From positions 1 to 35,941 of the IMG/VR virus record IMGVR_UViG_3300008266_000716: a DNA stretch of 35,941 nucleotides; one strand, 5' to 3'. This document shows positions 972-35,041 of this stretch, one piece after another. The notes beneath the pieces were generated by a model, which was given only the letters and a program-made list of their open reading frames with translations, searched no databases and had not been told where the DNA came from. Numbering within the stretch: the first letter of the stretch is position 1; each line of letters starts with the position of its first letter. Origin of the DNA: a virus. The translations under genes and the position numbers were made by a program.

Positions 972-1481
972 ATGATAAAATTACTTGATATATTAAGCGA
1001 AGCTAAATTAACTATTTCTGGTACGGATAAAGCAATAAAAATGTTAAAATCTGAATTAAGAAATAATAATGTTGATTTTGAAATAGAAGGAAATAAGGTA
1101 ATAGTTAATGATTCTCCTAAAGCTAAAATGGCTGTGAAGATGGTTAAAGAAAGAGTAGGAATGCAGTCAATAAAATTAGCTGAAGAAATAAAATCTGAAG
1201 CTACATTTACTAAAAAATATGATGATAGTCCTAAATTAAAAGGTAAACAAACTAAATTACCTGATGAAGTGCAAGCTAAAATTATAAAAGAAGGAGATCA
1301 CGAAGTAGCAATGGCTCAAGCTAGTTTAAAATCAATTATCAAATCTGCCGCCCAACTAATGAATAAATTAGGTAATATGGAGCGTGATATTCCAGGCTGG
1401 ATTCAAGATCACATCACAAATGCTGAAAATTATATCGATCAAGCTGCTCAAGGATTTCATGAACTAAAAAACGATGAATAA
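972..1481 (+). CDS. Tagged small protein, probable internal head protein
   Basis: Protein of 169 residues that begins MIKLLDILSEAKL, the clearest match in this window to the T4 internal-protein targeting peptide MKTYQEFIAEA; cleavage would fall between E10 and A11. Residues 14-58 look like a small alpha/beta domain. The C-terminal 55 residues contain a helical segment with ERDIPGWIQDHITNAENYI. This resembles a 'D[IL]P.W[IV]Q.KI..A..Y' motif I recall from many uncharacterised phage proteins. The gene overlaps the next one by 8 bases, so the pair is probably translationally coupled. No specific activity can be assigned. Confidence 0.75.
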   Translation: MIKLLDILSEAKLTISGTDKAIKMLKSELRNNNVDFEIEGNKVIVNDSPKAKMAVKMVKERVGMQSIKLAEEIKSEATFTKKYDDSPKLKGKQTKLPDEVQAKIIKEGDHEVAMAQASLKSIIKSAAQLMNKLGNMERDIPGWIQDHITNAENYIDQAAQGFHELKNDE

Positions 1482-2839: not shown

Positions 2840-3277
2840 ATGAAAAGTCAAATATTACGCCAATTAATTAGAGAAACTATATCTCAATATCTTAAAGAAC
2901 AAGAAGATTTAACTCCTATAGACCCCGGTCCTGGACAAGAACCTGCTAATATCCCTTCACCAGATGAAGCACCATCAGAGGCAGAAACTCCTGAAACACC
3001 AGCAGGAACTATTACCACAGAACAAGCTAAACAACTTATTAAAGACACCAAAGGTAAATTTTTCACAGTAACTTTTATTAAAAAAGATGGATCAGAACGT
3101 GTAATGAATGCTCGTTTAGGGGTTAAAGTTTATTTAAAAGGTGGTGAATTACCCTATAATCCAGATGAAAAAGGATTAATTCCTGTTTATGATGTTAAAA
3201 CGGGTGGATATAGAATGGTAAATGTTTCTACTATTAAAAAATTAAAAATAGGTAATAGTGATTACACCGTACAATAA
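2840..3277 (+). CDS. Tagged small protein with Pro/Glu-rich linker
   Basis: Protein of 145 residues. The tag at residues 1-20 (ILRQLIRETISQYLKEQE) has a possible protease site after LIRE. Residues 22-58 are a low-complexity Pro/Glu/Ala linker. Residues 60-145 form a small, probably beta-rich domain (KFFTVTFIKKDGSERVMNAR...). This tail resembles small SH3-like phage domains with '.F.V.FIKKDGS.R.M..R.GV'; that is recall of a pattern, not a search result. Its stop codon overlaps the next start (TAATG), indicating coupled translation with the 953-residue gene. Confidence 0.7.
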   Translation: MKSQILRQLIRETISQYLKEQEDLTPIDPGPGQEPANIPSPDEAPSEAETPETPAGTITTEQAKQLIKDTKGKFFTVTFIKKDGSERVMNARLGVKVYLKGGELPYNPDEKGLIPVYDVKTGGYRMVNVSTIKKLKIGNSDYTVQ

Positions 3278-6138
3278 TGATAAGATTAGCTAATATATTT
3301 AAAGAGGTAAAAATACAGACCCCCGAAATAACCCCACCTTTAGATAAACAAATATTAAACCATTTAATAAAATCAATAGTTAAGTATATTGAATATGCTA
3401 ATATAGATATGTTTACTTTTTTATTAAATGATGATTATTATGGCGATATAATAAAAGAATATATATATGAACAAATGAAGTATAATCATTATGATTTAGA
3501 AGATATTAACTATAAATCTGATGAAAGTATAGAATCATATATAAAAGAACATCCTGAATTAAAACAATACGTAAACAAAAAAGCACTAGAATATTACCTT
3601 AAATCTATAAATTTAGGTCGAATGGTTAGTGATATTAAAAAAGAAGTTAAAGAAAAAGGATGGTGGAGTGGTTTAATAGATAATTATCTTGATTCTGATC
3701 AAGGACAAGAATTATTTGAACCTTATTTTGAGGATTTTATATATAAGAACTTTGATTTTGAATCATATTTAATAAAAATGTTAAATCAATCTGATTTATT
3801 TACTGAAGTAGTTAAAATTAGTGCTCCTGCTAGAATTCATGATTTAGATAAACCTGGAGTTAAGTTTGAAAATATTAAAATAGGAGATATATTACAATTT
3901 ACTTTATACCAACCTCAAATAGAAACAGTACGCCAAAAAGTAATAGGATTTAAACAAGATACTAATCCAATGCATGATGTAGGTGATATTCTTATATCTC
4001 AAGATTTAGATGATTACGGAGAATTAAGATCAGGAACAGATTATTGGGTTAAATTTTCTATAGAAAACTATTGGGAAGGAAAACCATCTAATATAAAAGA
4101 AAATATAATAAGAGAATACCCTGAAAGTAAAATTAATAGTTTATTAATTAAATGGGGAATAGATTCTACAAAAGACCAAGCTAAAGCAAATATCGCTCGT
4201 CAACTTATTAATAGATTTGACCAAATTAAAGGATCATTAAATGATAAATTAGATATAGTTATAATCCCTAATGAAATAAAAAACAAAGATGTTAAAGATA
4301 TAGATTTATATTCATTTGAAGACTTACAAAAATTAATCAATTCATACCCTGAAAATCCTGAAAAATCTAAAAAAGAAGCAATTAATAGGTTTGTAGAAAA
4401 ATTTGGAATAGATAAACCTACGGCTCAATCATATACGGCTCGTTTTATGGCAAAAAGAGATGCTTTAAAATTTGGAGTAAGAGACGGTATAGAAGAATTA
4501 GGACTTACAAAAGAAGATGTTTTAAGTTATATTCCTAAAAAATTACAACAAAATGATGCTTTTTTAGATCCTCGTAACTGGGGATGGCAAGAATTTGAAC
4601 AAATGCTAGATGCTTTATTCCCATCTCAAAAACAAGTAAGTGGAGAGGATATAAATTTAGCAGAAACAGATGCTGATAAGATATACAATAAAAATGGTAT
4701 AGAAATATATAAAGGAGATGATGTACATAAGTGTATATCATATAACCCTATATCTCAAACTACTAAAAGAAAAAAATATGGATGGTGTGTAACTCAAATA
4801 GGTAATACTAATTATGATTATTATAGATTTGGAGATAAAGCCCCTACATTTTATTTTATATTTGATCGAAGTAAACCATCTACTCCTGAACATGCTAGCT
4901 TTGACGATAAATGGCATGCTTTTGTAATTCAAGTAAATAAAGATAATAATTCATATATAGTAACTAGTGCCAATAACGATAGAGATGCTCCTGCTAAATC
5001 TTGGGAAGATATATCAAACATAGTACCTAAAGACACATGGGAAAAAATTAAAAATTTAAAAGATTATTTTAAACCAATTTCTTTATCTAGTACAGAACGT
5101 GGTAGAAAATTTGCCTCAGGCAAAAATTTATCTTTAGATGAGTTTAAAGAATTATCTCAAGACGAAAAAATACTATATGTTCAAGGTAAAGCATCAAAAA
5201 ATGCACTTACTTCTGAAATTTTAGCTATTTTACCTAAATATAAAATAAGTTTAGAGGGAAGATCAACAACATTAGCTAATGTTGCTATTGATAGTGGACA
5301 AAAATTTCCTTATTCTTTATTAAAAGATTATGAATCTTTAGCTAAACGATATGCTATATTTAGATTTAGACATACTAATTACAGTAAGGATCCAATACCT
5401 CTACCATATGTACAATATTTAGATGAACCTGCTAAAGAAACATATTTATCCAAATTTGGTGATAATGTATCATTTGAATTAATTGACCAATATTTTGGTC
5501 AAAATTTATTAGAGAAATCAGTAAATGAACAGGTTAAAGAATTAGGATTTATAAGTCCTGAATATATTAAATATATTAAAGATCCTAAATTAAGATCATT
5601 ATATGAATCATATTCTAAATTATATGGTAATTGGTTTAAAGGAGATAACTTTAATAATGAAGAAGCAATATCTAACATGACAGATATGCCAGAGCAAGTA
5701 ATCACCCCAGTTTATATAACTTATGATCAGTGGGAAGAATTATCTAGTACAGAAAAAAATACATTATTAAAATTAACTAATAAAGTAAATGGTAATGATA
5801 AGTTTTCGACTTTTCTATATGCTGCTCCTTATATAATTAAAGACGGTTCTAAAGAATATATATTACTTCCAACCTCAGTAGATACATCGGATTATTTACC
5901 ATATAAGACGTGGGTTTTAGTTGATAAAAACAACAATATTATTAAAGATAATATAAACGGTGAGGAGTCAAAAATAGGTGATGAACAATTAGGATATGGT
6001 TATTTTACAAGTAAACCAAAACGAGTATATTCTATGGACGATACTAATTTAGTAACTGGAGAAGTTAATGAAACTGAAAAATTATATGAAGATTGGGATA
6101 AATACCAATTAATGATTAGAGCAGGAATAATAAAATAA
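3277..6138 (+). CDS. 953-aa tagged protein, possible ejected internal protein
   Basis: Begins MIRLANIFKEVKI, matching the shared targeting-tag pattern, with a possible cut after IFKE. Residues 20-200 are helical and acidic. Around residues 470-570 lies a Tyr/Phe/Trp-rich domain with KCISYNP, YGWCVTQIGN, YDYYRFGD, TFYFIFDR, WHAFVIQV and VTSANN. I recall similar '.WC......YYRFG...TFYF..D' segments from other uncharacterised phage proteins, with no known activity. The C-terminal 380 residues show no family I can name. There are no membrane segments or cysteine clusters. Size, tag and solitary complexity recall T4 Alt, a head-packaged ejected ADP-ribosyltransferase, but I see no ADP-ribosyltransferase motif. 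The gene is last in its operon; a terminator follows. Confidence 0.8.
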   Translation: MIRLANIFKEVKIQTPEITPPLDKQILNHLIKSIVKYIEYANIDMFTFLLNDDYYGDIIKEYIYEQMKYNHYDLEDINYKSDESIESYIKEHPELKQYVNKKALEYYLKSINLGRMVSDIKKEVKEKGWWSGLIDNYLDSDQGQELFEPYFEDFIYKNFDFESYLIKMLNQSDLFTEVVKISAPARIHDLDKPGVKFENIKIGDILQFTLYQPQIETVRQKVIGFKQDTNPMHDVGDILISQDLDDYGELRSGTDYWVKFSIENYWEGKPSNIKENIIREYPESKINSLLIKWGIDSTKDQAKANIARQLINRFDQIKGSLNDKLDIVIIPNEIKNKDVKDIDLYSFEDLQKLINSYPENPEKSKKEAINRFVEKFGIDKPTAQSYTARFMAKRDALKFGVRDGIEELGLTKEDVLSYIPKKLQQNDAFLDPRNWGWQEFEQMLDALFPSQKQVSGEDINLAETDADKIYNKNGIEIYKGDDVHKCISYNPISQTTKRKKYGWCVTQIGNTNYDYYRFGDKAPTFYFIFDRSKPSTPEHASFDDKWHAFVIQVNKDNNSYIVTSANNDRDAPAKSWEDISNIVPKDTWEKIKNLKDYFKPISLSSTERGRKFASGKNLSLDEFKELSQDEKILYVQGKASKNALTSEILAILPKYKISLEGRSTTLANVAIDSGQKFPYSLLKDYESLAKRYAIFRFRHTNYSKDPIPLPYVQYLDEPAKETYLSKFGDNVSFELIDQYFGQNLLEKSVNEQVKELGFISPEYIKYIKDPKLRSLYESYSKLYGNWFKGDNFNNEEAISNMTDMPEQVITPVYITYDQWEELSSTEKNTLLKLTNKVNGNDKFSTFLYAAPYIIKDGSKEYILLPTSVDTSDYLPYKTWVLVDKNNNIIKDNINGEESKIGDEQLGYGYFTSKPKRVYSMDDTNLVTGEVNETEKLYEDWDKYQLMIRAGIIK

Positions 6139-11186: not shown

Positions 11187-11193
11187 TATTTAT
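11186..11193 (+). promoter_or_regulatory. ATATTTAT box overlapping first ATG at 11192
   Basis: Exact octamer overlapping the kinase stop region and the first possible ATG (ATATTTATG). This overlap is one reason to prefer the ATG at 11219, which is 25 bases downstream. Confidence 0.45.
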
Positions 11194-11218
11194 GCACACA
11201 GAAATAAACGCAAATATC

Positions 11219-12133
11219 ATGACTCCTAAACAAATACGTGTTTTAGTTAAAGAAGTAATATCAGAAGTAGGATTATTTACCTTAAAAAACCCGGTAGACG
11301 CTACTAAAGGTCTATCAACAGTAATTGATCCTGATGATAACACAGAAAAATCATCTGCTTTTCAACAAAAATACAAGAAAGTAACAGAAATGGCTCGTAA
11401 AGCTAAAGGATACCAAATTGTAAATCCTGAATTTGATACTACACCATATGCTGATAAAACAATAAGTGGGATATCAATGGCTTCTATTATTGATTATATT
11501 AAAACAAATCCCGGTGTAGAAAAAAAAGATATTCAAACTCAATTTAATTTTGTTCGCCCACAGATAGCTAACGCATTGATAAATGGTTTAAAAGATGCTG
11601 GTATTATAGCTAAAATGGGTGAGATAGAGGTAGATGATGAAACAGGAGAAGTAATAGTAACGGATGAACCTGTAACCCAAACATCACGAGCAGGTGCTGA
11701 AGATTTTTTCATTGGTAATAGAGCAAGTAATTTTTTTACATCAGGTGAACCTAGTTCATCAAACGATGAAATAGAATTTCCTGAAGAACCAGAGATGCCT
11801 GAATTACCAATAAATAAATTATCTTCAATAGGAGGATTATCCGACGAGGACTATAATGCTTGGATGGATTATTCTAAATTTAAAGAACGTTTAGCTAGAA
11901 CTAAAAGTGCCTTAATACAAGTTAAAAAAATGAGTAGAGGTAGAGATGATTTATCATTAGGTTCAGATGAAATGGAACGTTTAACTAAATTAAAAGCATC
12001 TCTTGAACAACGTATGCAAAATGTTGTAAATTCAAACGAATATGTTAAAAATAAAGTAGAACAAGAAAAAAATATTCCTTCTGAAAATGAATTAATAGAA
12101 AGATTTCAAAAATTAGCAAACATAGATCAATGA
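11219..12133 (+). CDS. Tagged protein ending in scaffold-like LANI motif
   Basis: An ATG at 11192 opens the frame, but I choose 11219. It puts the shared tag (MTPKQIRVLVKEVISEVGL) at the N-terminus, as in the other tagged proteins, and frees the ATATTTAT box. The product is about 304 residues. Residues 80-140 (after a variable linker) read like a winged-helix fold: SMASIIDYIKTNPGVEKKDIQTQF...IANALINGLKDAGIIAKMGEI. An acidic Pro-rich linker follows (EFPEEPEMPELP), then a coiled coil. The C-terminus ERFQKLANIDQ matches the end of the scaffold protein (SRMQKLANIIK). It could bind DNA and be packaged with it; that is inference. Stop and next start overlap (ATGA). Confidence 0.7.
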   Translation: MTPKQIRVLVKEVISEVGLFTLKNPVDATKGLSTVIDPDDNTEKSSAFQQKYKKVTEMARKAKGYQIVNPEFDTTPYADKTISGISMASIIDYIKTNPGVEKKDIQTQFNFVRPQIANALINGLKDAGIIAKMGEIEVDDETGEVIVTDEPVTQTSRAGAEDFFIGNRASNFFTSGEPSSSNDEIEFPEEPEMPELPINKLSSIGGLSDEDYNAWMDYSKFKERLARTKSALIQVKKMSRGRDDLSLGSDEMERLTKLKASLEQRMQNVVNSNEYVKNKVEQEKNIPSENELIERFQKLANIDQ

Positions 12134-20103: not shown

Positions 20104-20718
20104 ATGAATAAACAATTATTAATAGACCATATTCCTTTTAATGTAGCTAAACTACAACCCATTAACGAAGGTAAAACACCTAGTGATGGGATGATGCGTA
20201 TTAAAGGCAAATTACAAGAAGCCAATAAAAAGAATGGTAATGGACGTGTTTACCCGTTAAAAACATTAAAAGTACAAATCGACAAATACATGAATGGTCC
20301 TATGACCTCTAGAACATCAACTGGAGAATTAGACCATCCTGAATCATCTATTATTAACTTAAGCAATATATCCCATTTAATTACAAAAATATGGTGGGAA
20401 GGTAATGACGTAATGGGTGAACTAACTTTATTAAACACACCTTCTGGTAAAATAGCACAAGAAATTATTAGAGCAGGTATACCTTTAGGTATATCATCAA
20501 GAGGTATGGGTTCAGTTAAACAAATTGGTGAAACTGTTGAAGTACAAGATGACTTTGAGTTACTATGTTGGGATCTTGTAAGTGTACCTTCAACCCCTGA
20601 AGCCTATATGACATTAGCTGAAGGAAAACAATATAAATCTATTAAAGATTATACAAAAGTAAACGAATTAATTACAGAAATTATATGTACTCAAACAGGA
20701 GTATGTAGTTTATGTTAA
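20104..20718 (+). CDS. 21: Prohead core protease (T4 gp21-like)
   Basis: Serine protease that matures the prohead by cutting scaffold, capsid precursor and internal proteins. Protein of 204 residues; T4 gp21 is about 212. The catalytic His lies in TGELDHPES (His78) and the Ser in PLGISSRGMGS (Ser131 or Ser132), in the order and spacing of the T4 His85/Ser140 pair. FELLCWDLVSVPSTPEAYM (about 151-169) is the conserved strand-loop seen in this family. The C-terminus ends CTQTGVCSLC. It is flanked by core-like and tagged genes, which are its expected substrates. Encoded just upstream of scaffold and capsid as in T4 (21-22-23). Confidence 0.95.
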   Translation: MNKQLLIDHIPFNVAKLQPINEGKTPSDGMMRIKGKLQEANKKNGNGRVYPLKTLKVQIDKYMNGPMTSRTSTGELDHPESSIINLSNISHLITKIWWEGNDVMGELTLLNTPSGKIAQEIIRAGIPLGISSRGMGSVKQIGETVEVQDDFELLCWDLVSVPSTPEAYMTLAEGKQYKSIKDYTKVNELITEIICTQTGVCSLC

Positions 20719-20737: not shown

Positions 20738-21082
20738 ATGAAAACACAATTAAACGAACAATTTAAAAGAATGCAGCGATTAGCTAATATTACTGAAGCT
20801 GCCGATCAAAAAATGCAAGATATAGCATTAAAATTTTCTAATACTGCCCCAAATACACCTCCAGGTGCTAAAGCAGGAGAAACTCCTAAAACAAGTGATG
20901 TAACTAATTTAACTAAATTAATGACAACTAATACATCTCTTTTAAATAGATTAAAAACAGTTAATAGTAACAATGAAATAATTGAATTTTTAACTTATAT
21001 CTTAAATACCATTAATCCTAAAGTAACAGGAGTTAATAGATCTGCTTTAAAAAAGATAATTGACGATAGATTTACCCAATAA
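20738..21082 (+). CDS. Small tagged protein with LANI motif
   Basis: Protein of 114 residues that begins TQLNEQFKRMQRLANITEA. The MQRLANI piece matches the end of the scaffold (MQKLANI), and ITE followed by A is a plausible prohead-protease site. The middle is a low-complexity Ala/Pro/Thr linker (NTAPNTPPGAKAGETP), and the end is a helical bundle of about 50 residues. No catalytic motif. A probable core or internal protein processed by the protease encoded immediately upstream; its stop overlaps the next start (TAATG). Confidence 0.7.
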   Translation: MKTQLNEQFKRMQRLANITEAADQKMQDIALKFSNTAPNTPPGAKAGETPKTSDVTNLTKLMTTNTSLLNRLKTVNSNNEIIEFLTYILNTINPKVTGVNRSALKKIIDDRFTQ

Positions 21083-21918
21083 TGATTAAACTATTAGATT
21101 TATTAAAAGAAATTAAACTTGGGGAAGCCATAGTAAAAGTACCTCAGGAAATTTTATCTAAATCTAAAGAAGCATTTAATTATATTAAGCAGTATTTAGA
21201 AGATTTAAAAACTAAATCACCTAAAAGTTATCAAAAACCTTATATTGATTCTAAATTTAAGGATTATTTTAAATTTAAAGATCTTAAAAATCAAGACTTA
21301 ATTATTAGTATAGGATTATATAATGATCCTGAGGACGCGGGAGCTGGAAGAATGGATACTGTTAATGATGTTTTATTAATTAATTTAGCCTATTTTAATC
21401 CTGAAGATTTAGAATCTTTTGAAGATATAATAGAACATGAATTAGTTCATGCTATGGATCCTAAAGTTAGAGATAAAAAATTATTTGGTGCTATGTATGC
21501 TAAGAAAGGAGCAGAACCCAGTGGTAATAAATTAAATTTATCTAAAAGTGGAGGTAAATCCGAATATACTACTAATTTTGAAAAGTACCTAAAATCACCT
21601 TGGGAATTTGATGCTTTTACAGCACCATTAATTAATACTATTAAATTTAATTTAAATAAATTCCCCAATGATAATACCTATAGGAATTTACTAATCCAAT
21701 TACTATCAGATATAAAAACTAAAAGTATTGAGCAGATTGTTAATGATAGCAAATATGAAAAATTACCTTGGTTTTTTAGTAAAAAAGAATGGGATTCAAA
21801 AAATTGGGATACTATAAATAATGCATATCAGTCCGAATTATATAAAATGAAAGCTTGGTCAACTAAACCAACTTTATATCAACGTTTTACAAAAAGATTA
21901 GGACAGGAAATAACATAA
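21082..21918 (+). CDS. Tagged HExxH zinc metallopeptidase-like protein
   Basis: Protein of 278 residues. The N-terminus MIKLLDLLKEIKLGEA is a near-perfect shared tag, with a possible cut after LLKE. Residues 110-127 contain the zinc site EDIIEHELVHAMDP: H119-E120-x-x-H123. The third ligand may be Glu175 in SPWEFDAFT (171-179), as in peptidases with 'HE..H ... [WY]E.[DE]A' spacing of about 50 residues. It probably hydrolyses peptides in a Zn-dependent way, but the target is unknown. It lies between protease gp21 and scaffold, and it has its own downstream dyad and terminator. The tag suggests packaging in the head, so it may act in the prohead, or in the host after ejection. Also possible: it degrades core fragments. 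Confidence 0.8.
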   Translation: MIKLLDLLKEIKLGEAIVKVPQEILSKSKEAFNYIKQYLEDLKTKSPKSYQKPYIDSKFKDYFKFKDLKNQDLIISIGLYNDPEDAGAGRMDTVNDVLLINLAYFNPEDLESFEDIIEHELVHAMDPKVRDKKLFGAMYAKKGAEPSGNKLNLSKSGGKSEYTTNFEKYLKSPWEFDAFTAPLINTIKFNLNKFPNDNTYRNLLIQLLSDIKTKSIEQIVNDSKYEKLPWFFSKKEWDSKNWDTINNAYQSELYKMKAWSTKPTLYQRFTKRLGQEIT

Positions 21919-21930
21919 TAAATTAACCAC

Positions 21931-21951
21931 TCTATCGATAGTATCGTTAGA
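21931..21951. repeat. Near-perfect dyad before terminator
   Basis: TCTATCGATA, a central G, then TATCGTTAGA: 9 of 10 positions pair. Such a tight palindrome is more like a protein-binding or cruciform site than an RNA hairpin (no loop). It sits between the metallopeptidase stop and the terminator. Confidence 0.4.
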
Positions 21952-21954
21952 CAG

Positions 21955-21986
21955 ATGCCTCCCCTAAAAAGGAGGTATTTCTTTTT
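21955..21986 (+). terminator. Rho-independent terminator before scaffold gene
   Basis: Stem 21955-21962 (ATGCCTCC) pairs with 21971-21978 (GGAGGTAT, one G-T wobble). The loop is CCTAAAAA and the tail TTTCTTTTT. It separates the protease/metallopeptidase genes from scaffold and capsid, which therefore need their own promoter. Confidence 0.85.
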
Positions 21987-22011
21987 GCGTTTTTTGTTAT
22001 TTGCATATATG

Positions 22012-22095: not shown

Positions 22096-23280
22096 ATGTC
22101 AAACAAAAAACTATTTGAAGAGGCTATCGTTGACGCTAAAGCCGTTCGCGAAGCAGCATTATTAAACGCAAAAGAGGCCCTTGAAGAAGCTTTAACTCCA
22201 AGTATTCAAAACATGTTAGTTGCAAAATTAAACGAAATGGACATGGATGATGAATATATGGAAGAGGAACAAATGGAAGGCCAAATTGATGAAGAAGATT
22301 ACATGCAACCACACGACACTGCAGATGAAATGGGTCAAATGGGGTATGGTAACAAAGAACAAGGCAAACCCGGTCATAGAGATACTGGTCTTGAAGAAGA
22401 ATTCGATTTATCTGCTATTCTAGCTGAATTAGAAGCTGAAGAAGCTAATGAAAACTTAGCCGAAGCTAAAAAAGGTGAAGAAGAAGAAGAAGAAGAAGAA
22501 GAAGGTGAAGAAGAAGGTGAAGAAGAAGGTGAAGAAGAAGAAGAAGAAGAAATGGAAGTAGGCGACATGTCTGTTACTGATCTTAAAAACCTAATTAAAG
22601 ATATTGTATCACAAGAATTAGAAGCTGAAGAAATGGAAACACCTGCTGACGAAGAAGCTGAAATGGACATGGATATGGACATGGATGCTGAAATGGGCGA
22701 TGAAGAAATGGAAATGACTGATGAAGAAGAAATTGACCTAGAAGAGCTATTAGCTGAATTAGATTCAATGGATGGTAATATAAACGAATACGCAGAAACA
22801 CAACCAGACGAAATGTTAAGAGCTATTTGTAATGATTACCCACAACATGCTTCATGTAAAGGACTTAAAGAAGCTCGCAAAATCCAAAAGATTAAATCAA
22901 AACCCGTTATGACCAATAAGGATAAAGGAGAAATGAAAGAAGCTATTAATGTAATTAATGTTCTTCGTAAAGAACTTAACGAAACTAACTTATTAAATGC
23001 TAAGTTACTTTATGTTAATAAAATTTTCAAATCTAAAAATTTATCTGAATCACAAAAACTAAATGTGATTACATCATTTGATAAAGCAACCACACCTAAA
23101 GAAGCTAAAATGGTTTATGAATCATTAGAAGCTAATTTAAGTGCTGTTAAAAAGAAATCACCTATTAAGGAATCTTTAGGATTTGCTTCAAAAGCAGCCG
23201 GTATGGCTCCTAAGAAACAAATCGTAGAATCAAATGACGTTATTTCACGTATGCAAAAACTAGCTAACATTATTAAGTAA
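22096..23280 (+). CDS. 22: Prohead scaffold/core protein (T4 gp22-like)
   Basis: Protein of 394 residues, assigned by position (21-22-23 order) and composition. The N-terminal helix is FEEAIVDAKAVREAALLNAKEALEEAL. Residues 127-153 are an almost pure Glu stretch broken by Gly, and residues 185-225 are rich in Asp, Glu and Met. The C-terminal half is a Lys-rich coiled coil with KNLSESQKLNVITSFDKA. It ends SRMQKLANIIK, a motif shared with two other proteins of this window. Scaffolds of this kind form the prohead core and are then degraded by the gp21 protease. No sequence motif beyond this is diagnostic, so homology to T4 gp22 is inferred rather than seen. The gene follows a terminator. Confidence 0.8.
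   Translation: MSNKKLFEEAIVDAKAVREAALLNAKEALEEALTPSIQNMLVAKLNEMDMDDEYMEEEQMEGQIDEEDYMQPHDTADEMGQMGYGNKEQGKPGHRDTGLEEEFDLSAILAELEAEEANENLAEAKKGEEEEEEEEEGEEEGEEEGEEEEEEEMEVGDMSVTDLKNLIKDIVSQELEAEEMETPADEEAEMDMDMDMDAEMGDEEMEMTDEEEIDLEELLAELDSMDGNINEYAETQPDEMLRAICNDYPQHASCKGLKEARKIQKIKSKPVMTNKDKGEMKEAINVINVLRKELNETNLLNAKLLYVNKIFKSKNLSESQKLNVITSFDKATTPKEAKMVYESLEANLSAVKKKSPIKESLGFASKAAGMAPKKQIVESNDVISRMQKLANIIK
22474..22551 (+). repeat. GAA/GGT triplet repeat in scaffold gene
   Basis: Twenty-six in-frame codons, almost all GAA (Glu), interrupted by four GGT (Gly). Such a microsatellite could change length by slippage, in steps of a residue. Confidence 0.85.
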
Positions 23281-23303: not shown

Positions 23304-24914
23304 ATGAACATTCAACAATTATTAGAATCCTCAAACCAATTTAAATCGGTTCAGGATGACGCAAAACGCCTTCAAAACAAATGGAGGAAATCAGGCCTAT
23401 TAGAAGGTCTAAAAGATGACCATAGCTGTAACACAATGGCTATGTTGTTAGAAAATCAAGCAAAACAATTAGTAGTAGAAACCTCTACTACAGGTAATCA
23501 ATCAGGTGGTGCTGGAACGTACAGCGGTGAAAGCTGGAATGGTGTTGCTTTACCATTAGTTCGCCGTGTATTCGGAGAAATCGCTGCTAAAGAATTCGTT
23601 AGTGTACAACCAATGAACTTACCTTCAGGTCTTGTATTCTATTTGGATTTTAAATACGGTACTGGTGTTAAACCATTCACTAATAATGGTTCTTTATATG
23701 GTGCTAATGCAACAACAAACGTAACTGATATCGCATCCGCTTCATTATATGGTGCTGGAAGATTTGGTTATTCAATCAACCAGTTCTCTGCTTCTGCAGT
23801 TGCTGTTACTCAATCAATTGCTTGGTCTGACTTTAACTTAGATTCTGACTATAGCTCTTCATTCTCTACTTACAAGAAAATTGCTGTACCTCTTCCTTCT
23901 AGTGCTGATACTAATGGCGTTCGCGCATTCGTTTTCACTTCAGGTTCAATTACAGGTGCTGAAATTTTACAAACATACACTACAGTAACTAATAATACTG
24001 CTTCATTCGTTATCACTGGTTCTGCCGTTAATGGTACTGCTACTGGTCCAGTTTTAAGTGGTGGTGTTGTATTATACTATGATGTAGCTCCTACTACTAC
24101 TACACGTGGTGATTTCGAAGATGCTTCAAATGCTGGTTACCCTAACGCTCAAAGCAATACTACAATTGCTATCCCAGAAATTAACATTCAGTTAAAATCT
24201 GAAGCAATCGTTGCTAAAACACGTAAATTAAAAGCACAATGGACACCTGAATTCGCTCAAGATTTGAACGCTTACCATAGCGTAGATGCTGAAGCTGAAT
24301 TGACTGGTATTTTATCTCAATACATTTCAATGGAAATTGATTTGGAATTGTTGGATATGTTGATTCAAAACGCTTTTACAGTTGATTACTGGTCAGCAGT
24401 TAACAACCAAGCAGTAACTTCTACAGGTGTAAGTAATAATAACTTAGGTTTCTATAATACTCAAGGTGGTTGGTTCCAAACTTTAGGAACTAAGTTACAA
24501 AAAGTATCTAACAAGATTCATCAGTTAACAATGAGAGGTGGCGCTAATTTCTTAGTTACTTCACCTACAGTTGCTACTATATTAGAATCAATCCCTGGAT
24601 TTGCTTCAGATGGTGATGGCGAGAAAATGGAATACAATTTCGGTATCCAAAAAGTTGGTACTTTAAACAGCCGTTACAAAGTATACAAAAATCCATACAT
24701 GACTGAAAATATAATCTTGATGGGTTATAAAGGTGCTCAATTCTTGGAATGTGGTGCTGTATTTGCTCCATATGTTCCGTTAATCATGACTCCATTGTTG
24801 TACGATCCAAACACTTTCACACCAAGAAAAGGTTTGATGACTCGTTACGCTAAGAAAATGATACGTCCCGATTATTATGGGAAAATCTATGTAGCTGGTT
24901 TGAACACTATCTAA
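23304..24914 (+). CDS. 23: Major capsid protein precursor (T4 gp23-like)
   Basis: Main shell protein of the head; hexamers form the icosahedral surface. Protein of 536 residues; T4 gp23 is 521. The N-terminal 59 residues are a helical, charged propeptide (LLNKWRKSGLLEG-like region, NKWRKSGLLEGL at 25-36), probably removed by the prohead protease after QLVVE (E59/T60). The mature part shows the gp23 landmarks: LVRRVFGEIAAKEFVSVQPMNLPSGLVF near 87-114 and the block with KSEAIVAKTRKLKAQWTPEFAQDLNAYHSVDAEAELTGILS. GTLNSRYKVYKNPY... ILMGYKGAQFLECGAVFAPYVPL closes it, leading to KGLMTRYAKKMI. Codons here are less AT-extreme than in neighbours, as for a highly expressed gene. Confidence 0.97.
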   Translation: MNIQQLLESSNQFKSVQDDAKRLQNKWRKSGLLEGLKDDHSCNTMAMLLENQAKQLVVETSTTGNQSGGAGTYSGESWNGVALPLVRRVFGEIAAKEFVSVQPMNLPSGLVFYLDFKYGTGVKPFTNNGSLYGANATTNVTDIASASLYGAGRFGYSINQFSASAVAVTQSIAWSDFNLDSDYSSSFSTYKKIAVPLPSSADTNGVRAFVFTSGSITGAEILQTYTTVTNNTASFVITGSAVNGTATGPVLSGGVVLYYDVAPTTTTRGDFEDASNAGYPNAQSNTTIAIPEINIQLKSEAIVAKTRKLKAQWTPEFAQDLNAYHSVDAEAELTGILSQYISMEIDLELLDMLIQNAFTVDYWSAVNNQAVTSTGVSNNNLGFYNTQGGWFQTLGTKLQKVSNKIHQLTMRGGANFLVTSPTVATILESIPGFASDGDGEKMEYNFGIQKVGTLNSRYKVYKNPYMTENIILMGYKGAQFLECGAVFAPYVPLIMTPLLYDPNTFTPRKGLMTRYAKKMIRPDYYGKIYVAGLNTI

Positions 24915-33780: not shown

Positions 33781-34134
33781 ATGATTAAACTAACAGACAT
33801 ATTAAATAAAAATTTATTACTTGAATCACTTGCTATATATGAAGTAGAAGTAATGATTAAAGTAGAAAGACAAGCAAATAAAGTAGATATATATAATGAA
33901 ATTAGAGCTATTGAAGGAGTAGTTGTTGTTAAAGTAGAACAAAATACTTACCTAAATACTTTAATTACAGATCAAACTGAATATTCATTATTACATATGA
34001 AATATTTAGTATACACTGATCCAATTGATGCTATTAAAGAGATTAAAACTAGAGCAATATCTTCTGATAAAATATCTGGTTTATTAAAATTTATCCCTAG
34101 ACTAAAAACTCTAGAAAAGAAAACTGTTTTATAA
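33781..34134 (+). CDS. Tagged 117-aa protein between neck genes
   Basis: Starts MIKLTDILNKNLLLESLA, a variant of the shared tag in which the critical Glu after ILN is replaced by Lys, with LLLES a few residues on. Residues 20-65 (EVEVMIKVERQANKVDIYNEIRAIEGVVVVKVEQN) look like a small alpha/beta (ferredoxin-like, ACT-like) fold. The end is basic (RLKTLEKKTVL). Its location between the two neck genes and the weaker tag make an internal-head role less certain than for the others. Overlaps the next gene by one base (TAATG). Confidence 0.65.
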   Translation: MIKLTDILNKNLLLESLAIYEVEVMIKVERQANKVDIYNEIRAIEGVVVVKVEQNTYLNTLITDQTEYSLLHMKYLVYTDPIDAIKEIKTRAISSDKISGLLKFIPRLKTLEKKTVL

Positions 34135-34670
34135 TGAGTTTATTCGGAGCAAATAGAGATATAAGTTTATTTAGACACATAAATAGAGAGTTAATTAATG
34201 ATATTATTGAGCAAAAAGTAGGATATTATAAAATAGTATTAGATCGCTCTATACCTAATATATATGGAGAATCATTAAAAAAAATATATAACGATCCTGT
34301 ATTACTTAATTGTTTAATAGAAAGAGGAGACACCAATCCATTAACAAATGAGTTTGGTATGGACATTACTCGTAACATAAAATGCCGCTTTTTACGCGAT
34401 GATCTCGCGGGTATTGATTTAAGCACCGAGCTCGGCCCAGACGCTAGAGGCTTCGCATATAACATAGTACCTGAAGTAGGAGATGTTGTATTATGGAATA
34501 ACGATTATTATGAAGTTAATAATGTTAATGAAAACCAATTAATAGTAGGAAAAGATCCTGGTTATTCTTATTCAGATAATACAAATAATTTTGGTTCATC
34601 GTGGTCTATTATTGTAGAATGTTTTTACATAAGACCAGAAAAAGTAAATATTGCTCAAGTAAGATTATAA
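34134..34670 (+). CDS. 14: Neck protein (T4 gp14-like)
   Basis: Protein of 178 residues; T4 gp14 is 256. Residues 35-75 contain an IPNIYGESLKKIYNDPV segment, aligned loosely with the T4 'VSPDLIFGEDLKNKF' region. Residues 115-140 (VPEVGDVVLWNNDYYEVNNVNENQLIVGKDPGY) parallel T4 '[31 protein letters not shown]'. The position after gp13 supports the call. Probably forms part of the neck that joins head and tail. Shorter at both ends than T4 gp14. Confidence 0.75.
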   Translation: MSLFGANRDISLFRHINRELINDIIEQKVGYYKIVLDRSIPNIYGESLKKIYNDPVLLNCLIERGDTNPLTNEFGMDITRNIKCRFLRDDLAGIDLSTELGPDARGFAYNIVPEVGDVVLWNNDYYEVNNVNENQLIVGKDPGYSYSDNTNNFGSSWSIIVECFYIRPEKVNIAQVRL

Positions 34671-34677
34671 TACTTAT
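34670..34677 (+). promoter_or_regulatory. ATACTTAT box (variant) upstream of gene at 34682
   Basis: One-mismatch version of the octamer, 4 bases before the ATG at 34682; supports that start over the upstream one at 34601. Confidence 0.3.
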
Positions 34678-34681
34678 TAAC

Positions 34682-35041
34682 ATGATTAAATTATTAGACA
34701 TAATAAAAGAAGTTGAAATTCCTGTAGTAGGAATAGGTGGTGAAAAAATAGCTGCTTTTAAACCTAAACAAGATGATGAAGCTTTTAAAAGAGGATATAA
34801 AAGTATAAAAACTTCTATAAATCCTGAAACAGGTACTTTTACACAAGAATTTGAAGCTCTTCCAAAGTTTGAGGAAATAAAAAAAAATATTCTTAAATAT
34901 AGAAAAGAAATTCAAGTATTTAAACATTCAGCTAATGAAGATATAGCTAAAGTAGCTAAAGAAGCTAATAATCACTTATATAAAGCATCTCAATCTATAT
35001 TAGCTTTAGATAAAATGTTAGAATTACAAAGAAAACAATAA
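34682..35041 (+). CDS. Tagged 119-aa protein
   Basis: The frame is open from an ATG at 34601 that lies inside the gp14-like gene. The ATG at 34682 gives the tag MIKLLDIIKEVEIPV at the N-terminus, so I take 34682. The tag fits the shared pattern very well (cut site after IIKE). The rest is a charged helical protein with an FKPKQDDEAFKRGYKSIKTSI segment and a C-terminal coil. No catalytic motif. A probable internal or structural protein; gp15-like gene follows 2 bases later. Confidence 0.75.
   Translation: MIKLLDIIKEVEIPVVGIGGEKIAAFKPKQDDEAFKRGYKSIKTSINPETGTFTQEFEALPKFEEIKKNILKYRKEIQVFKHSANEDIAKVAKEANNHLYKASQSILALDKMLELQRKQ

Follow-up and report, generated by a model that had tools for sequence, protein, structure and literature searches.

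A tag-bearing, predicted zincin-type metallopeptidase as candidate head cargo in a T4-like phage contig

Introduction

T4 brings its internal proteins into the head by means of a short tag and injects them. This tag, an N-terminal capsid-targeting sequence of 10-19 residues, anchors the proteins in the core and is cut off by gp21 behind L/I-x-E (PMC9026906). In T4 IPIII, replacing the Glu of the cut site by Asp is reported to stop cleavage while leaving targeting intact. The injected zincins described in PMC5512222, such as the MPTase domains of P1 DdrB and the N4 virion RNA polymerase, are domains of large polyproteins; the same work describes the zincin core and its phage-type variation, in which HExxH is followed three residues later by an Asp. 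Both the delivery of internal proteins by a tag and the injection of zincin domains have been described before. In the open-access literature that we searched, we came across neither a family of free-standing zincins delivered by a tag nor a cargo slot between the gp21 and scaffold genes.

The gene described here lies in a 35.9-kb phage contig with a T4-like head block (35,941 nucleotides; this whole stretch of analysed DNA is called the window below). Like T4 IPI, IPII, IPIII and Alt, its product opens with a peptide of about 10 residues that ends in L/I-x-E and is followed by a globular body, and as in T4 the context is that of gp21 and a core, with a patchy, accessory and variable set of candidate cargo (PMC9026906). 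Also as in the T4 type, this peptide recurs on several phage proteins that are otherwise unrelated. It differs from the T4 proteins in the sequence of the tag, in that packaging and cleavage are here predicted from the genes, and in its body, which is metallopeptidase-like whereas those of the T4 internal proteins and Alt are a small basic protein or an ADP-ribosyltransferase. With the P1 DdrB and N4 zincins it shares the description of the core fold, with HExxH and a helix-borne Glu, the phage-type Asp and, as predicted here, a head-packaged, injected context (PMC5512222). The polyvalent MPTase, however, is one domain of a multidomain injected polypeptide, whereas the window peptidase is a free-standing protein of 278 aa, and none of the Pfam or PHROG models for metallopeptidases, the polyvalent/phage type included, recognizes it.

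Results

Genomic organization

The head block of the window is arranged as follows.

12829, terminase-like ORF
14457, portal, gp20-like
20104..20718, + strand, prohead protease gp21 (Peptidase_S77; PF03420 E=6.7e-29, phrog_207 E=1.5e-52)
20738..21082, + strand, second slot protein of 114 aa with a class C tag (LNEQFKRMQRLANITE)
21082..21918, + strand, tagged, predicted zincin-type metallopeptidase of 278 aa with an ATG start (28 relatives; AlphaFold2 mean pLDDT 84.8)
21953..21980, + strand, terminator-like hairpin 3' of the run of gp21, tagged ORF and peptidase
22096..23280, + strand, acidic gp22-like scaffold between gp21 and gp23, its C-terminus RMQKLANIIK (23248-23277) matching the class C tag
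23304..24914, + strand, major capsid protein gp23 (PF07068 E=1.3e-78)
25562, PhoH-like

This head gene order equals that of the annotated Flavobacterium phage Immuto and Microcystis phage Mel-JY01, which also hold the best-scoring annotated gp21 relatives (about 45% identity). The initial annotation had placed a zinc metallopeptidase next to the prohead protease; the zincin-type assignment stands but the direct adjacency does not, the 114-aa ORF at 20738-21082 lying between the two. That ORF and the peptidase start overlap by one base (TAATG). The terminator-like hairpin was the single one found, against 1.1 expected by shuffling, and the RNA fold z-score for 21915-21995 was -3.15. The T4 late promoter TATAAATA was dropped as a candidate signal, its 17 occurrences against 16.4 expected being no commoner than chance.

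Compared across loci, the space that separates gp21 from the scaffold is a slot with variable candidate cargo. Among 69 distinct gp21 loci, 38 have no ORF of at least 60 aa in the gap and 31 have one to three. An N-terminal tag of class A or C was found on 37 of the 44 slot ORFs and on 37 of 914 other ORFs of the same strand, a contrast whose Fisher p of 7e-39 is overstated because the loci are relatives of one another, some of the 914 are spurious ORFs, and the patterns were drawn post hoc from some of these loci. The peptidase itself occupies seven of the 69 slots, some of them near-identical pairs, and the other 62 have no copy there. In the closest relatives (loci L002, L006 and L008) it stands beside GroES/GroEL-like genes, with clamp-loader-like genes also in the neighbourhood, and retains its tag. 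No peptidase match came from a 171.7-kb record, of unknown completeness, whose gp21 is 84% identical.

The peptidase and its family

Three features of the gene bear on its predicted function.

21082..21111, + strand, class A tag MIKLLDLLKE, with a presumed gp21 cut after Glu10 (L-K-E), from the recurrence of the tag and the motif of PMC9026906
21436..21450, + strand, HELVH motif, His119 to His123, followed by A-M-D126-P127 (invariant in 29/29; helix 110-125 of the model)
21604..21606, + strand, Glu175, putative third zinc ligand (invariant in 29/29 and outside every search pattern; helix 173-192)

Sequence conservation and the predicted structure support the identification of the 21082-21918 product as a zincin-type metallopeptidase with Glu175 as its likely third ligand. 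The tag joined to HELVH (119-123) that had been read from the DNA is borne out, the ORF starting with MIKLLDLLKE and carrying both HELVH and Glu175 (within KSPWEFDAFT); and Glu175, put forward earlier as a possible third ligand, is now a likely one, being invariant although never selected for and lying on helix 173-192. His119 and His123 are the only histidines of the protein, its HELVH is the only HExxH among all window ORFs, and HExxH arises in 0.05% of shuffled versions of its sequence.

We aligned the window protein with 28 usable relatives from scans of IMG/VR, all on uncultured phage contigs and 18-75% identical to it. Across the 29 rows the invariant columns are H119, E120, L121, H123, A124, D126, P127 and E175. 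Part of the relatives had been collected with the DNA pattern HELxHAxDP, which covers every invariant residue except E175, so the invariance of HELxHAxDP is partly selected, whereas the conservation of E175, absent from every search pattern, is an independent result.

Most family members are free-standing tagged proteins of about 255-300 aa, and clear fusions occur in L026/L027, L133 and L145. In L026 and L133 the peptidase is joined to a module that in L053 is a tagged protein of its own (56% identity with the L026 module, counted from the tag onward), and a second tag with an ITE site lies between peptidase and module. The L145 gene (6588-7757, - strand, 390 aa) has tandem HExxH domains, an N-terminal one reading HELTHHRQ...ENEAN and the family's own HELVHAVDP domain, with at least six tagged ORFs in a row close by.

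The window peptidase gave no Pfam, NCBIfam or PDB sequence match above cut-off, the PDB sequence search returning chance-like matches only (for example, to a His-rich stretch of YcdH), and its weak PHROG match, phrog_16532 (E=0.004), is of unknown function. The PhageMetallopep model was weakly matched by three of the 29 family members (best 1.3e-4), the window protein not among them, and the curated IrrE/ImmA M78, SprT and M76 models gave weak matches only, with the window protein below every cut-off. A tblastn search at permissive limits of 50,697 phage records, using the window protein, four relatives and the L026 fusion as queries, found no peptidase relative; its one notable match was in Mel-JY01, which encodes a relative of the L026 C-terminal module. 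GTDB genomes yielded 10 motif matches, none of them a peptidase relative, and PADLOC gave no convincing defence family.

More sensitive comparison pointed to Salicola phage SCTP-2, a cultured jumbo phage. A profile-profile alignment (hhalign) of the family with three SCTP-2 proteins had a probability of 95.7% and an E-value of 8.9e-9, with HExxH and the Glu aligned, and the HExxH proteins of this phage, including PBI_SCTP2_56, are remote homologues of the peptidase. Like it, they have a short N-terminal peptide ending in [LI]xE; where checked, they are annotated 'hypothetical protein'. They are 16-25% identical to one another, and their genes are scattered over the 440-kb genome and not next to gp21. 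Genome-wide, the N-terminal motif is weakly enriched in SCTP-2 (20% vs 15%). Five [LI]xE-tagged HExxH proteins were seen in the SCTP-2 genome (MF360958), at 40414-41715, 47818-48798, 102214-103308, 243353-244204 and 380172-380921; the phage also has a SprT-like protein and another HExxH protein without the [LI]xE N-terminal peptide.

Predicted structure

An AlphaFold2 model of the window peptidase, built on an 18-sequence alignment, has a confident zincin topology (mean pLDDT 84.8, pTM 0.84). The core is mostly above pLDDT 90, residues 1-10 average 45 and residues 5-15 fall below 50. The elements follow in the order helices, strands within 63-101, the HELVH helix 110-125 and the Glu175 helix 173-192, and the order of the DSSP elements in the model agrees with a helix, a putative three-stranded sheet and two active-site helices. 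With this order and with Asp126 the predicted peptidase fits the zincin core described in PMC5512222. A Foldseek search of the PDB put zincins first (selecase, PprI/IrrE), at a best E-value of 0.24 and none below 1e-3. The likeness to IrrE/PprI (M78), SprT-like, M76 and selecase proteins is weak in fold or below threshold in sequence. The BFVD fold search gave three matches below 1e-3, two with the lengths of the 326- and 284-aa SCTP-2 HExxH proteins, an assignment made from protein length and accession prefix. The model of the 503-aa L026 fusion was uninformative (mean pLDDT 52.8).

N-terminal tags

Other class A proteins of the window are listed below.

972..1481, + strand, 169 aa, MIKLLDILSE
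3277..6138, + strand, 953 aa, MIRLANIFKE, without a Pfam match and with the largest body of any tagged window protein
33781..34134, + strand, 117 aa, MIKLTDILNKNLLLE
34682..35041, + strand, MIKLLDIIKE, starting inside ORF 34601-35041

Three tag types stand on unrelated window proteins, with the consensus MIKLxDILxE (class A), M..LKxIIKEE (class B) and ..NExxRMQxLAxIxxE (class C), and most of them close with [L/I]-x-E, the motif behind which gp21 cuts. Neither the class B and C tags nor the gp21 motif is long, and [L/I]xE often arises by chance. A loose N-terminal regular expression proved over-permissive on long contigs, and a controlled count of starts against internal Met residues was used in its place. 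By this count the class A tag opens 4 of 37 window ORFs, a fifth ORF having its start masked, and is found at none of 216 internal Met residues. Separately, [LIVF]xE falls within residues 6-15 in 15 of 35 window ORFs, the share among internal windows being 13.5%. The scaffold C-terminus repeats the class C motif, as RMQKLANIIK here and as variants elsewhere, and keeps it in most related loci; covariation between class C tag and scaffold C-terminus at the R-x-Q residue was sought and not found (permutation p=0.84). Taken together, MIKLLDLLKE resembles a capsid-targeting sequence, and it probably loads the peptidase into the head.

The flavour of the tag appears to track lineage, a suggestive pattern in small numbers. 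In one 206-kb record the peptidase begins MKNIIKTLLRES and other genes begin MKKRIKQLLREN and MKPTIKQLLRER, and the N-terminus that is repeated in Immuto, with FxxENKLT, is another one. An Immuto gene annotated as a cob(I)alamin adenosyltransferase (L159:1972-2973) has the N-terminal peptide FLTENKLTKNAQLLKE, very like the FLVENKLTTNSKILKE of the next gene.

Further proteins also have tags or tag-like motifs. Window ORF 11192-12133 resembles class B at its N-terminus (RVLVKE) and class C at its C-terminus (RFQKLANIDQ), and so has a tag-like motif at either end. Two class A tagged proteins without a Pfam match recall known folds by eye: one of 536 aa (L121:8217-9824, - strand) has a GIY-YIG-like stretch (YVGLTNDPNRRYGEH), and one of 223 aa (L154:111-779, + strand) has an ADP-ribosyltransferase-like start (IWYHGS). 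If real, this last one would parallel T4 Alt. A tagged P-loop protein (MIRLIDLLMEAAMPQNKMIIMAGGAGAGKSTLIN; G001:138893-139726, - strand) is possibly a nucleotide-binding head cargo.

Discussion

We propose that the protein is a free-standing, accessory zincin carried as head cargo, trimmed by gp21, ejected, and cutting a protein in the new host, a reading to which we assign a probability of roughly 0.55. From the recurrence of the tag and the genome context, the first 10 residues would dock the peptidase in the prohead core in the manner of a T4 capsid-targeting sequence, and by its motif match gp21 would clip behind Leu-Lys-Glu10, so that the mature enzyme is set free within the head. Invariance and the predicted fold suggest a zinc site formed by His119, His123 and Glu175, with Glu120 as general base. 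The enzyme would then leave with the DNA and may cut a protein of the newly infected cell, most plausibly one of host defence or regulation; this is the step that we hold least firmly. The analogy of T4 Alt and IPI, and that of the effector role considered for phage zincins in PMC5512222, make a host protein the likeliest end point.

The initial annotation had offered two roles, action on a host protein or help in clearing the core. Our results favour the first and disfavour the second: the gene is patchy, absent from 62 of 69 slots, mobile around the genome and not found in the close 171.7-kb relative (G002), all of which makes core clearing less likely. The accessory distribution, the shifting location and the retained tag likewise speak for head cargo over an enzyme of assembly.

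A packaged helper of head maturation, acting within the prohead on core or scaffold fragments or on tagged cargo and not directed at the host, is nevertheless the most serious competitor, though an unlikely one. The gene lies between prohead protease and scaffold and is probably co-transcribed with gp21, given the gene overlap and the terminator-like hairpin; PMC5512222 suggests that polyvalent phage zincins process their own proteins while in the head; and L026 and L133 place the ITE-bearing second tag just where peptidase and other module meet. The fusions L026, L133 and L145 would fit self-processing too, which counts against our preferred reading. Against such a helper, most related slots lack the gene, in T4 gp21 already clears the core (PMC9026906), and the closest peptidases, those of L002, L006 and L008, adjoin chaperonin-like and not head genes. 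Inside the head, the peptidase may yet process a partner cargo.

Those same GroES/GroEL-like and clamp-loader-like surroundings, and class B-like N-termini outside head clusters, would suit an unpackaged peptidase of the infected cytoplasm whose tag serves some other end, for instance association with the membrane or the replisome. We consider this quite improbable, as the tags are strongly enriched in the gp21-scaffold slot, those of class C carry a motif identical to the scaffold C-terminus, and the tags end in gp21-type [L/I]xE. We give least credence to a packaged zincin-fold protein whose catalysis is unimportant and which docks in the core or associates with DNA as T4 IPII and IPIII do: T4 internal proteins are abundant, dispensable and partly uncertain in function (PMC9026906) and no substrate is known for the peptidase, but Glu120, a general base and no metal ligand, is kept with both His residues and Glu175 in 29/29 sequences down to 18% identity, which implies selection on catalysis, with the reservation that E120 was part of one search pattern.

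Beyond the accessory, ejected zincin that we prefer, we hold only tentatively, at less than an even chance, a wider proposal: that the gp21-scaffold gap would be a loading site with interchangeable, lineage-specific tags, one of them matching the C-terminus of the scaffold itself, and that its cargo would include a new family of free-standing, injected zinc peptidases, which would cut defence or regulatory proteins of the host as infection starts. With remote homologues in SCTP-2, which is cultured, the question can be put to the test. If true, a family of free-standing peptidases delivered by a tag would be a simple injected protease, and the tag pattern together with the slot offers a sequence-only route to listing probable head cargo among the hypothetical genes of T4-like phages.
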